The translations under genes and the position numbers were made by a program. Below, piece after piece: positions 15,753 through 18,940 of a stretch of 64,000 nucleotides of DNA. The first letter of the stretch is position 1. Every line of letters begins with the position of its first letter. A model generated the notes under the pieces. That model searched no databases. It had not been told where the DNA came from and saw nothing but the letters and a program-made list of their open reading frames with translations. The DNA comes from Lachnospiraceae bacterium. Lineage in GTDB: Bacteria > Bacillota > Clostridia > Lachnospirales > Lachnospiraceae. Location: contig JAIDHX010000037.1 of the NCBI GenBank assembly GCA_029053015.1, positions 62,001-126,000 of the forward strand, written 5' to 3'.

Positions 15753-16808
15753 ATGCCTAATGTAAGAGAAATATTAGAAGAAGCAAAAGCGGCGGGAGCG
15801 TCAGATGTACATATTACAGTAGGGATTCCACCCAAGATAAGGGTAAACGGCAAGCTGATTACGCTGACGCAGTATAACCGGCTTCTGCCTGCTGACACGC
15901 TGGATATGCTGTTAAATATTATGACGGAAACCCAGCGCAACCGTTTTGAGGAGAAGGGCGAATACGATATGTCCTTTTCCATACCTGATTTGGGAAGATA
16001 CCGTGTCAATGCGTACAAGCAGCGTGGCAGTGTGGCGCTTGCGTTCAGACTTGTAGGCACGAAGGTGCCTGCGCCGGAAGAACTGGGCGTGCCGGCTTCC
16101 GTTATCGATTTATATCAGAGAAAAAGAGGGTTGATCCTGGTTACCGGACCGACAGGAAGCGGTAAATCTACGACGCTTGCGGCAATTATTGATAAAATCA
16201 ACAACTGCAGGGATGCGCATGTCATTACGCTGGAGGACCCGATAGAGTATCTGCATCAGCACAAAATGGCGATGGTAAACCAGAGAGAAATCGGTTTGGA
16301 TTCCGAAAATTATGCCAATGCCCTGCGTGCAGCGCTCCGTGAAGACCCCGATGTCATTCTGGTGGGCGAGATGAGAGATTTTGAGACTATCAGCGTGGCG
16401 ATTACCGCAGCGGAGACAGGACACCTTGTGCTGTCAACCCTGCATACCATCGGAGCGGCGAGCACGGTAGACCGTGTTATCGACGTATTTCCGCCCCATC
16501 AGCAGCAGCAGATCAGAGTGCAGTTTTCCAATGTACTGGAGGCAGTTATATCCCAGCAGCTTGTCCCTACCATAGACGGCAGGGGACGTGTGGCTGCATT
16601 TGAGGTAATGCATGCCAACCATGCTGTCCGCAATCTGATTCGTGAGGGCAAGTCCCATCAGCTTACATCCGTTATGCAGACAAACCGTAAGCTGGGCATG
16701 ATGACCATGGACGAAGCGCTTCAGCAGCTTTACTTTGCGGGTCGTATCAGCCGCGAAATGGCAATCCAGTTTGCCCAGGACCCCGACAACATGGAAAACA
16801 AAATTTAA
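15753..16808 (+). CDS. pilT: Twitching motility ATPase PilT
   Basis: 351 residues, normal for PilT. It powers retraction of type IV pili at the cytoplasmic face. N-terminal PAS-like domain (ASDVHITVGIPPKIRVNG), Walker A GPTGSGKST at about 131-139, Asp box ITLEDPIEY, Walker B DPDVILVGEMRD, His box STLHT and the PilT-type C-terminus with AIRNLIRE-like AVRNLIREGKSHQLTSVMQT. No pilin, PilB or PilC gene is near, so its partners are elsewhere. The next genes, comM/yifB and dprA, suggest a role in DNA uptake rather than only motility. Confidence 0.93.
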   Translation: MPNVREILEEAKAAGASDVHITVGIPPKIRVNGKLITLTQYNRLLPADTLDMLLNIMTETQRNRFEEKGEYDMSFSIPDLGRYRVNAYKQRGSVALAFRLVGTKVPAPEELGVPASVIDLYQRKRGLILVTGPTGSGKSTTLAAIIDKINNCRDAHVITLEDPIEYLHQHKMAMVNQREIGLDSENYANALRAALREDPDVILVGEMRDFETISVAITAAETGHLVLSTLHTIGAASTVDRVIDVFPPHQQQQIRVQFSNVLEAVISQQLVPTIDGRGRVAAFEVMHANHAVRNLIREGKSHQLTSVMQTNRKLGMMTMDEALQQLYFAGRISREMAIQFAQDPDNMENKI

Positions 16809-16839
16809 TGATTCACTTCCTATCATTCGTTATCCAGCC

Positions 16840-16875
16840 GGGCGGGCTTGCCCCCGCAAGCCCACCCGCAGCTAT
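16840..16875 (+). terminator. Terminator after pilT
   Basis: GGGCGGGCTTGC (16840-16851) pairs with GCAAGCCCACCCGC (16856-16869) around a C-rich 4-nt loop. AT-rich sequence with a short T-run follows. It lies 31 nt after the pilT stop. Confidence 0.6.
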
Positions 16876-17020
16876 ATATTTTTCTGTACCAATTTATGTT
16901 CTGAAACAATATCTACTATGAGTCAAAATTTTCATCTTTTATATAACTTCAAGTAATTCTAGTGCAGCATCATTAAAAAATCCAATAACAATGCAATAAT
17001 ACAAAAATAGGTAATTGCGA

Positions 17021-17136
17021 AATATCTTCTGCAAGTGACGGAAATGTTCAATATAGACAAAAACAGGCTCCTAAGCAGTGGCAGGTCGCCCTTATTTTGT
17101 CTATATTGCCCATTTCCTGTAGATTGCAAGAATATT
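17021..17136. repeat. Left internal hairpin of the MITE-like element
   Basis: A perfect 14-bp stem pairs CAATATAGACAAAA (17049-17062) with TTTTGTCTATATTG (17095-17108). Outside it, GGAAATG pairs with CATTTCC, and AATATCTTCTGCAA with TTGCAAGAATATT imperfectly. Confidence 0.7.
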
Positions 17137-17195
17137 TTGCAGGCACCTTTTGACCTTTATTGGGTAATCGTGAAATTCACACTTGCCGATTTCGA

Positions 17196-17330
17196 ATTGT
17201 GCACATGGTATATTCCATAAGCAGACCCTTGCTTACCGTCGGTACTTAGCGAGGTTTTTTCGAGCTTAGTACCGCTACGGTAAGCTTGGAGCGAGAGCGA
17301 GTCTGCGTTGGAATATACCATGTGTACAAT
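17196..17330. repeat. 135-nt three-tier hairpin element (copy 2), inside the MITE-like element
   Basis: Outer arms 17196-17217 and 17309-17330 pair over 22 nt with one mismatch, leading into GCAGAC (17221-17226) and GTCTGC (17301-17306). The middle stem is GCTTACCGT (17231-17239) with ACGGTAAGC (17277-17285). The inner stem is GTACTTAGC with GCTTAGTAC. The right internal loop carries GAGCGAGAGCG (17289-17299). Loop sequences and layout match the hairpin at 4463-4600, but the stem sequences differ and remain paired. Confidence 0.8.
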
Positions 17331-17395
17331 GACAACGGTATAGTTTCTGCGTTTCGCAATTACCTAAATACAAAAACACAGAAAGGAGTACTTTT

Positions 17396-18940
17396 ATGTT
17401 TAGTGCAGTCAACACAGGAGGAATCCGCGGAATGGACGCCTATCCGGTGCGCGTGGAAGTGGATCTGTCAAGAGGCCTTCCATGCTTTGAGCTGGTGGGC
17501 AGCGCGGGCAATGAAGTCAAAGAAGCGAGGGAAAGGGTACAGATTGCCTTGAAAAACGAGGGAGTGGCGCTTCCGGTATCCAAAATAACCGTCAATCTCT
17601 CTCCGGCAGACATCAGAAAGGAGGGGACAGGGTACGATTTGCCGATTGCAGCAGGTCTGCTGGCATGCATGGGTATGTTTCCTGCGTCTGCTTTTCAGAA
17701 TACCGCTTTTTTGGGAGAACTTGCCCTGAATGGGGAGGTGCGGCGGATAAACGGTGTGCTTCCGATTGTGATTGCACTTAAGAAGGCGGGCATCGACATC
17801 TTTCTGGTGCCTGCGGCAAATGCGGGGGAATGTGCGGCAGTTCCGGGCATCCGGACGGTGGGACTAAAAAGTGTAAGGGAGCTGATTGACTATCTGAAAG
17901 CAGACGAGGCAGAGCGGTGCAGATGTTTTCCACCTTATACAAAGTGGAAAACAGAGAAAGCAGAGGCCGGAAAGAAGGACTTTGCACAGGTATGCGGGCA
18001 GGAAAGCGCTAAGCGGGCGGCGGAAGTGGCTGCCGCGGGATTTCACCATCTGATGCTGGCCGGCGCGCCGGGGACGGGAAAGACCATGATTGCAGAACGG
18101 ATTCCGGGAATTCTGCCGCCGATGTCGGAAGAAGAAAAGCTGGAGGTGTCTGCCATCTACAGCATTGCAGGAAAGCTGGAATCGGAAGGGCTGATGGAAA
18201 ACCGCCCGTTTCTTGCGCCGCACCATACCGTATCGCCGCAGGCGATGGCGGGAGGCGGGCGAATTCCGCGCCCCGGGCTTTTGTCCCTGGCGCATCGCGG
18301 CATCCTGTTTTTAGATGAGATGCCGGAGTTTTCTTCCGCCGTTCTGGAGGTGCTCCGCCAGCCCATGGAGGAAAGAAGAGTGCATATTGACAGAAGTCAC
18401 GGCTCTTATACCTATCCGGCGGATTTTATGCTGGTGTGCGCCATGAATCCCTGCCCCTGCGGTTACTTTCCGGATAGAAACCGCTGTAACTGTTCGCCGG
18501 CAGATATCCGGCGTTATCTGGGACGGATATCCGGTCCGATTTTAGATCGGATTGACATGATAACGGAAGCAGCGCCCGTTGCGGTGAAAGATTTGTATGA
18601 GGCAAAGGCGGGGGAAGATACCGATACCATCAGGCAGCGGGTTCTGCAGGCGCGGGAAAGGCAGCAGTTCCGCTATCGGGGAAGCCGTTACCGCTTTAAC
18701 GGGGAACTTCCCGGGAGCGAGGTAAAAAAGTACTGTTTTCCGACTTTTGACGGGCAGCGTTTTCTGGAGCAGATGGAAGAAGCAGGGCAGATTAGCGCCA
18801 GAGCCTTTCACAAGATACTGCGGCTTGCGCGGACGACTGCCGATTTGGCGGGCAGTGAGGAAATCGGGCAGGCGCATTTGGCGGAGGCTATTTGTTACAA
18901 CAGCGGAAGAAGGCGCTTCTGGAACCAAATGGCAATGTAA
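17396..18940 (+). CDS. comM: YifB/ComM-family AAA+ ATPase (Mg-chelatase-like)
   Basis: 514 residues, the usual length. An N-terminal Lon-protease-like S5 domain (residues about 1-165, PADIRKEGTGYDLPIA) is followed by a Mg-chelatase ChlI-type AAA+ domain with Walker A GAPGTGKT at about 222-229 and Walker B ILFLDEMPEF. A Cys cluster, NPCPCGYFPDRNRCNC, is typical of the family. ComM is a helicase that aids branch migration of incoming DNA during natural transformation in other bacteria; the gene next to dprA is the usual arrangement. The MITE-like element lies 29 nt upstream and may have displaced or replaced the native promoter. Confidence 0.93.
   Translation: MFSAVNTGGIRGMDAYPVRVEVDLSRGLPCFELVGSAGNEVKEARERVQIALKNEGVALPVSKITVNLSPADIRKEGTGYDLPIAAGLLACMGMFPASAFQNTAFLGELALNGEVRRINGVLPIVIALKKAGIDIFLVPAANAGECAAVPGIRTVGLKSVRELIDYLKADEAERCRCFPPYTKWKTEKAEAGKKDFAQVCGQESAKRAAEVAAAGFHHLMLAGAPGTGKTMIAERIPGILPPMSEEEKLEVSAIYSIAGKLESEGLMENRPFLAPHHTVSPQAMAGGGRIPRPGLLSLAHRGILFLDEMPEFSSAVLEVLRQPMEERRVHIDRSHGSYTYPADFMLVCAMNPCPCGYFPDRNRCNCSPADIRRYLGRISGPILDRIDMITEAAPVAVKDLYEAKAGEDTDTIRQRVLQARERQQFRYRGSRYRFNGELPGSEVKKYCFPTFDGQRFLEQMEEAGQISARAFHKILRLARTTADLAGSEEIGQAHLAEAICYNSGRRRFWNQMAM

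Follow-up and report, generated by a model that had tools for sequence, protein, structure and literature searches.

The 359-bp element in front of comM in the window (the whole stretch of 64,000 nucleotides analysed) is an ordinary MITE with an unusual partner, landing place and conserved hairpin core. It is probably a composite MITE whose ends are those of an IS1182-related insertion sequence from the same genus, and whose insertion is directed by Shine-Dalgarno-like sequence. Of the new points the landing place is the strongest; its cause is either target choice or selection. The position before comM is the usual landing place of the family and is nothing particular to comM.

Anatomy of the element upstream of comM

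The right end of the element lies 29 nt before the comM ATG at 17396 (Table 1). The original prediction had claimed perfect 15-bp terminal inverted repeats (TIRs), a perfect 10-bp target-site duplication and this 29-nt spacing, and each of these proved exact in position. The gene-less interior with two long hairpins that it described was also borne out, as the longest frame wholly within the element codes for 61 aa (an 88-aa frame extends out into comM) and the hairpins lie at 17040-17117 and 17196-17330. It had further supposed a three-way fold; the two hairpins are there, but they are separate, each closed by its own TIR-like ends. Because a degenerate TIR, TGGGTAATCGTGAAA, lies inside the element, we treat it as two units (A and B) and not as one. 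The folding energy gave z = -12.55 for the whole element and -13.05 for 17162-17366.

Table 1. Features in and around the element upstream of comM (positions in the window)
Feature	Position	Strand	Remark
Weak promoter-like site, TTAAAA - 16 nt - AATAAT, TG before	16973..17000	+	2 sites found against 1.2 expected
Left copy of target-site duplication, AATACAAAAA	16998..17007	.	10/10 bp identical to right copy
Composite MITE: unit A, linker and unit B	17008..17366	+	
Left terminal inverted repeat, TAGGTAATTGCGAAA	17008..17022	+	
Unit A, hairpin unit, 141 bp	17008..17148	+	in congener G021 found without B, flanked by duplications of its own
Inner hairpin of unit A	17040..17117	+	arms 17040-17067 / 17090-17117
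Linker between A and B	17149..17160	+	related CTG..CTTTYA in L002-L005 and L011 (by eye)
Unit B, hairpin unit, 206 bp	17161..17366	+	many copies elsewhere without A
Internal degenerate TIR of unit B, TGGGTAATCGTGAAA	17161..17175	+	
Inner hairpin of unit B	17196..17330	+	helices held by double changes
Structured core, motif modelled as R1	17216..17321	+	conserved side hairpin GCGAGAGC, 2-nt bulge
Right terminal inverted repeat, exact complement of TAGGTAATTGCGAAA	17352..17366	-	15/15 bp
Right copy of target-site duplication, AATACAAAAA	17367..17376	.	10/10 bp
AAAGGAG, likely comM Shine-Dalgarno and proposed signal for targeting	17382..17388	+	
comM/yifB-type gene	17396..18940	+	Mg_chelatase and ChlI domains

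The gene preceding comM encodes a T2SSE domain, as PilT has. After this pilT-type gene, at 16840-16868 of the window, a GC-rich hairpin appears terminator-like by eye; the terminator scan listed none there. If the promoter-like site is real, comM transcription might start at about the beginning of the element. ComM has a role in transformation, and an effect of the element on comM expression or competence, as originally proposed, is speculation.

Copies and modular units across genomes

A DNA search with the element of the window's own genome (G000, a draft assembly of 55 contigs, 97.8% complete) gave 70 matches, which reduce to about 40 distinct places because palindromic copies match on the other strand too. 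The TIR, with up to 2 mismatches, had 127 occurrences and the reversed pattern 26, an excess beyond chance (100 of the 127 places were listed individually). Further copies elsewhere in the host genome, which the original prediction had named as a check on itself, are therefore present, both as TIR matches and as elements. Profile searches resolved at least 54 elements in the fetched G000 loci, with B matches below 70 bits excluded; core-bearing places on, for example, C3, C12, C17 and C55 lie outside this set. Beyond G000 we used 27 loci of the sister species G017 (L301 gave no usable element, and L116 and L305 contain N), 15 of a third species, G021, and 5 of G016, a subset of the copies of each genome. 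The window element is short, has no transposase gene, carries TIRs and a duplication, and exists in many dispersed copies, as a MITE does.

Profile searches of the fetched loci separated two units, A of 141 bp (window copy) and B of about 205-229 bp. Every A unit in the fetched loci (16/16) adjoined a B, and many B units stood alone; in G021, A was found without B in all 15 fetched loci. The similarity of the linkers in L002-L005, L011 and the window suggests that the A-B pair may move as one. By eye, the linker of L008 and L009 looks instead like a further, third duplication copy, such as would be left by two insertions into one target. An A/B array of similar build, with an extra mini-A, occurs at L117 (G017).

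Several loci carried unusual arrangements. An extra stem, AAAGTCATGC..GCATGACTTG, at one core spot distinguishes B variants of 223-229 bp at L010, L069, L070, L073, L075, L076, L079, L080, L082, L083 and L084. At L061 (G000, 478-905) a B element is apparently nested in the arm of another B (by eye), and at L081 (G000, C28, 488-502) a lone right TIR, TTTCGCAATTCCCTA, perhaps an element remnant, lies just before a thioredoxin-like gene (by eye). Four contigs of G072 (L104-L107, bases 1-130) start inside B-like elements, as expected if the repeat breaks assembly.

Transposase-bearing relatives in the genus

The congeners G005, G016 and G053 have elements of 1742-1813 bp in which the same ends enclose an IS1182-related transposase. 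L098 (G005, 508-2320) has inverted TIRs 1.8 kb apart which enclose the transposase in two frames; both ends are also present in L120 (1357-3125), with a perfect 13-bp duplication, ATTTTGTAGCCCC, and in L127 (655-2396). The ends of all three, TAGGTAATTGCGAAA and TAGGYGTTTGCGAAA, are equal to the MITE ends. The open transposase frames are 532, 519 and 506 aa long (two in G016, one in G053). An intact transposase matched the IS1182 model NF033551 (NCBIfam) at E 2e-20, as well as Pfam DUF772, and the two frames of L098 matched NF033551 at E 2e-5 and 8e-9. The intact protein scored 72.9 bits and does not reach the curated cut-off of 270; as the score is so far below it, we regard the protein as a distant relative, named IS1182-related and not filed as a member. 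Four of 14 control genomes were matched by the same model, and the first half of the L098 protein had a match in 9/61 genus genomes at E <= 0.001.

In the draft G000, neither the first half of the L098 protein nor the NF033551 model found a match; a partner insertion sequence with identical ends in one and the same genome is usual for a MITE, though not required. A full-length element with the same TIRs and a transposase, which the original prediction had said should be sought, therefore exists in congeners but was not found in G000, where the mover may have been lost, lie in an assembly gap, be too divergent or be elsewhere in the population. Given the shared ends, the transposase would move the MITEs in trans.

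Target-site duplications and landing place

Duplications were scored against a null of 2,000 random pairings of flanks from different copies, with the 95% score as threshold. Those above it numbered 15/54 in G000, 9/28 in G017, 12/15 in G021, 2/5 in G016 and 1/2 among transposase-bearing elements (L119 and L127, each with one flank missing, fell outside the test); that only 15 of the 54 G000 copies have a recognisable duplication speaks against our main explanation. Perfect duplications, with 2 bases of freedom at each element end, were 10-16 bp long and occurred in the window, G021 and G016. The window copy has the only perfect duplication among the 54 elements examined in G000, and so looks the youngest of them.

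A facing start codon lay 18-45 nt from the element in 38/54 copies in G000 (p = 2e-17), 22/28 in G017 (3e-12), 8/15 in G021 (0.002) and 3/5 in G016 (0.04), against a background of 0.174. Within 25-35 nt the count was 33/54 in G000. Non-coding window positions, 5,721 in number, served as background (17.4% for 18-45 nt, 6.8% for 25-35 nt). Genes were called with a simple ORF finder, and the comM start was placed by hand at 29 nt (the finder chose a later ATG, at 65 nt); L269 and L280 of G021, in which an ATG about 30 nt away can be seen by eye, are outside the 8/15. No facing start was called at 18-45 nt for 16 of the 54 G000 elements and 7 of the 15 in G021. The transposase-bearing L098 is 28 nt, and L120 34 nt, in front of an ATG (by eye). 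About 114 nt separate the right end of L119 from a likely start, and L127 has no start in its one known flank (both by eye, the other flank missing), so that 2/4 transposase-bearing copies are near a start. Toward the gene, B was oriented 20 times in sense and 13 times in antisense, and the 9 A ends that face genes were all antisense. On 19/38 near-start sides the upstream gene ended 15 nt or less from the other end of the element, and many sites thus look operon-internal.

The distance from element to Shine-Dalgarno varied a little less (sd 3.4) than that from element to ATG (4.2; n = 39), and about 5 nt past the duplication there is a purine tract resembling a Shine-Dalgarno. In 19 high-scoring copies of 104, positions 5, 7 and 8 past the outer duplication edge were purines only. 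An ideal Shine-Dalgarno match of at least 5 nt was present near the duplication edge in 15/19 of these copies against 24% of 5,000 random positions, and one of at least 6 nt in 11/19 against 5.5%; the better of the two sides was used for copies and random positions alike, a choice which inflates the logo. Five G021 copies with no facing start within 45 nt (L267, L270, L271, L272 and L274) carry GAGAGG- or GAAGGG-like tracts by eye. Their scored matches were 4, 4, 5, 6 and 4 nt, where the mean for random positions is 3.9, so that only two of these sites stand out. A literature search, which covered few subscription papers, gave no account that we recognised of Shine-Dalgarno-directed insertion or of these repeats.

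Structure of the hairpins and their core

Pairing was counted in 40 of 51 B units, the 11 with the extra stem being left out. In these, 88.4% of cells pair against 84.0 in shuffles, and 41/80 pairs had changed on both sides against 23.9; sliding the alignment by 1-3 columns lowers pairing to 27-38%. Helices 4 and 6, which form most of the inner B hairpin, pair at 95% and 94%, against 79% for the TIR arms and 68% for the adjacent helix. The core, built from 38 aligned hairpins, has double changes in 19/23 predicted pairs and invariant positions outside helices. A covariance model found it in 43/61 genus genomes, with at least 64 matches in G000, and in 13/196 genomes of the order, all 13 in the same family. 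In many of the loci read, the arms around the core are unrelated but complementary. The extents of the hairpins are inexact at some loci (for example L053, L104 and L147), and no count rests on them. Rfam matched only MIR2950 in 16700-17700, at 30.2 bits against a gathering score of 76, and nothing at the core positions of six other loci; a known RNA family was ruled out on this ground, as matches were absent or below the gathering score.

comM orthologs and empty sites

Matches to comM were found in 55/61 genus genomes, and the upstream sequence was read for six. The nearest relative, G017 (comM 98% identical in aa), carries a B of another core subtype, whose degenerate end is about 30 nt before the ATG and within which the contig ends; it was therefore excluded as an empty site. 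No hairpin was seen by eye upstream of the comM orthologs of G074 (68% aa) and L157 (64%), and no such hairpin before comM in G015 and G002, and in G047 and G076 an A-core-like hairpin in other arms lies about 30 nt before the comM ATG (by eye). The original prediction looked for an empty site in sister strains; the comM orthologs of G074 and L157 lack a hairpin, and the nearest relative is occupied. Its broader view of a MITE-like, non-autonomous and recent insertion is supported by the many copies, the transposase-bearing elements in congeners, the duplications at young copies and the hairpin-less comM orthologs. Among 80 loci from named relatives, which include Acetatifactor, Butyrivibrio, Blautia and other Lachnospiraceae, there was at least one profile match about 350 bases upstream of comM (L179); this single match is a lower bound, as the profiles missed the A-core-like hairpin of L156 (by eye).

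Exchange of hairpins between copies

The first 15 listed locus pairs of G000 and G017 were taken as orthologous and compared (L290/L022 is absent from the hairpin comparison). Across them, 58 of 1,461 stem pairs had changed on both sides, against 10.1 expected from independent change, and 47 of the 58 were still paired. At several loci whose flanks are orthologous, the inner hairpin had a better match at some other locus than in its ortholog: L298/L068 (85.4% to the ortholog, 95.7% to the other locus; flanks 93/88%), L288/L060 (86.5% and 94.3%; flanks 95/93%) and L302/L064 (91.7% and 96.5%; flanks 93/93%). The ortholog stayed the best inner-hairpin match for L031, L300, L297 and L286, and L287 tied. 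The outer arms of L117, L302, L293, L297, L295 and L286 were slightly nearer another copy than the ortholog; poor flank identity weakens the pairs of L293, L295 and L286.

The inner hairpin thus seems, from these alignments, to have been exchanged in place at some orthologous copies. Palindromes are subject to breakage by SbcCD, and hairpins to hairpin-templated correction. We suggest conversion between copies, perhaps begun by breaks at the palindrome; hairpin-templated correction and repeated insertion are the alternatives.

Explanations for the placement

Under the explanation that we think probable, the transposase would act in trans on the MITE ends, purine-rich Shine-Dalgarno-like DNA would position one strand cut about 5 nt away, and the second strand would be cut 10-16 nt further upstream. 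A long hairpin would then be placed in the 5' leader with the Shine-Dalgarno left intact, which would make insertions mild and let copies accumulate. Before comM, the composite of A and B would have landed directly upstream of the Shine-Dalgarno, and the inner hairpins were probably exchanged later between copies by ectopic conversion. Against it stand the negative transposase searches in the draft G000, the distance of the transposase from the IS1182 family, and the elements and transposase-bearing copies without a near start. Insertion could instead be unspecific, with copies surviving at about -30 because the hairpin is useful there (for mRNA protection or translational control) or least harmful, as co-opted 5'-leader elements. 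The pairing of the inner helices at 94-95% with many double changes, against 79% for the TIR arms and 68% for the next helix, agrees with such selection, as do the conserved unpaired features of the core and the hairpins of other kinds before comM in G017, G047 and G076. We nevertheless find it somewhat unlikely, since the peak is very narrow (33/54 at 25-35 nt), young G021 copies with perfect duplications are already at the peak along with two transposase-bearing copies, and B faces the gene either way. The narrowness of the peak and the placing of both young and transposase-bearing copies are taken to favor a target sequence and are no proof of it. With the purine tract about 5 nt past the duplication we favor sequence-directed targeting over selection, on evidence that is weak at sites without a near start codon. 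Attraction of the transposase to promoters or the open transcription bubble, where short leaders would put the site at about -30, would fit the weak promoter-like site that ends at 17000 within the left duplication; the purine tract at duplication edges and the sites that look as if inside operons make it improbable.

A different question is whether the inner cores are a second, independent module, mobile or selected, that settles in palindromes, much as IS1272 replaces target inverted repeats, the MITEs being mere carriers. The core is spread over 43/61 genus and 13/196 order genomes, at the loci looked at it often sits within unrelated but complementary arms, its hairpins appear swapped in place, and IS1272 is described as replacing inverted repeats in the part of the account available (PMC5678879). 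Against this, no pair of empty and filled palindromes was shown, no enzyme was linked to the core, and ordinary gene conversion accounts for the swaps among MITE copies, and we judge the idea unlikely. Strong palindromes in many intergenic regions would also suit an old REP/BIME-like repeat instead of a transposon, which is rendered very improbable by transposase-bearing elements with the same ends and by the perfect duplications that the window, G021 and G016 show. Taking Shine-Dalgarno-directed insertion further, one tentative possibility, which we do not rate highly, is that a DDE transposase uses the DNA of the Shine-Dalgarno as a landing signal and equips dozens of genes in each genome with long structured hairpins in their ribosome-entry leaders, the cores then being exchanged in place; this would yield a fast-changing, genome-wide set of 5' leaders, which might serve the host in post-transcriptional control.

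Relation to known systems and significance

The transposase is related to the IS1182 family (NF033551) by NCBIfam and Pfam domain, and elements of both have TIRs; here, however, there are 10-16 bp duplications and a usual site beside a purine tract upstream of starts. IS1272, of the same family, replaces inverted repeats without duplication, according to the part of its description available (PMC5678879). Replacement of a target palindrome of this type was ruled out by the duplications found here. The pneumococcal BOX, RUP and SPRITE repeats are likewise small, MITE-like hairpin repeats in many copies (PMC3049150). In the portion of that account available, BOX is modular, the ends of BOX and RUP resemble an insertion sequence, and the repeats cluster and insert into one another; they differ from ours in ends, insertion-sequence partner and core, and placement at -30 or beside a Shine-Dalgarno is absent from that portion, which mentions Nezha and Correia as MITEs (PMC3049150). 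MITEs such as Nezha, Correia and MITEAba12 are also gene-less, with TIRs and duplications, and are moved in trans, but here every unit forms a single palindrome whose core is structured and covaries. REP sequences with their RAYT are, like the present elements, structured intergenic hairpins in many copies and sometimes in inverted pairs; the DDE-type ends and duplications set the present elements apart. A REP transposase beside paired cores was considered and set aside, as none was recognised by eye among the ORFs of seven core loci.

Few transposons have a target that is both safe and recurrent, and those that do are useful. If insertion truly prefers the few bases before a Shine-Dalgarno, this would be a new way into expressed genes, including those inside operons, that does not destroy them. 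The conserved, covarying core raises the question of what reads it, as DNA or as RNA, and in-place exchange of the hairpins, if true, would make clear in what way palindromes drive conversion among dispersed repeats.

Core hairpins at other loci

Core hairpins, mostly with long complementary arms, were also seen away from B TIRs in G000, at about 304-400 in L077, 148-246 and 534-629 in L078, 74-164 in L080 and 1815-2005 in L020. Some of these lie near GCGTGACTTGC/GCAAGTCACGC motifs and are possibly a second repeat class. In L052 (G006), the Rfam RNAs TwoAYGGAY and Clostridiales-1 are near a core hairpin (1231-1393, 2309-2470). In another genus (G101, L146), cores at 762-901 and 2646-2775 precede purM-like and purD-like ORFs of an apparent purine operon (by eye).
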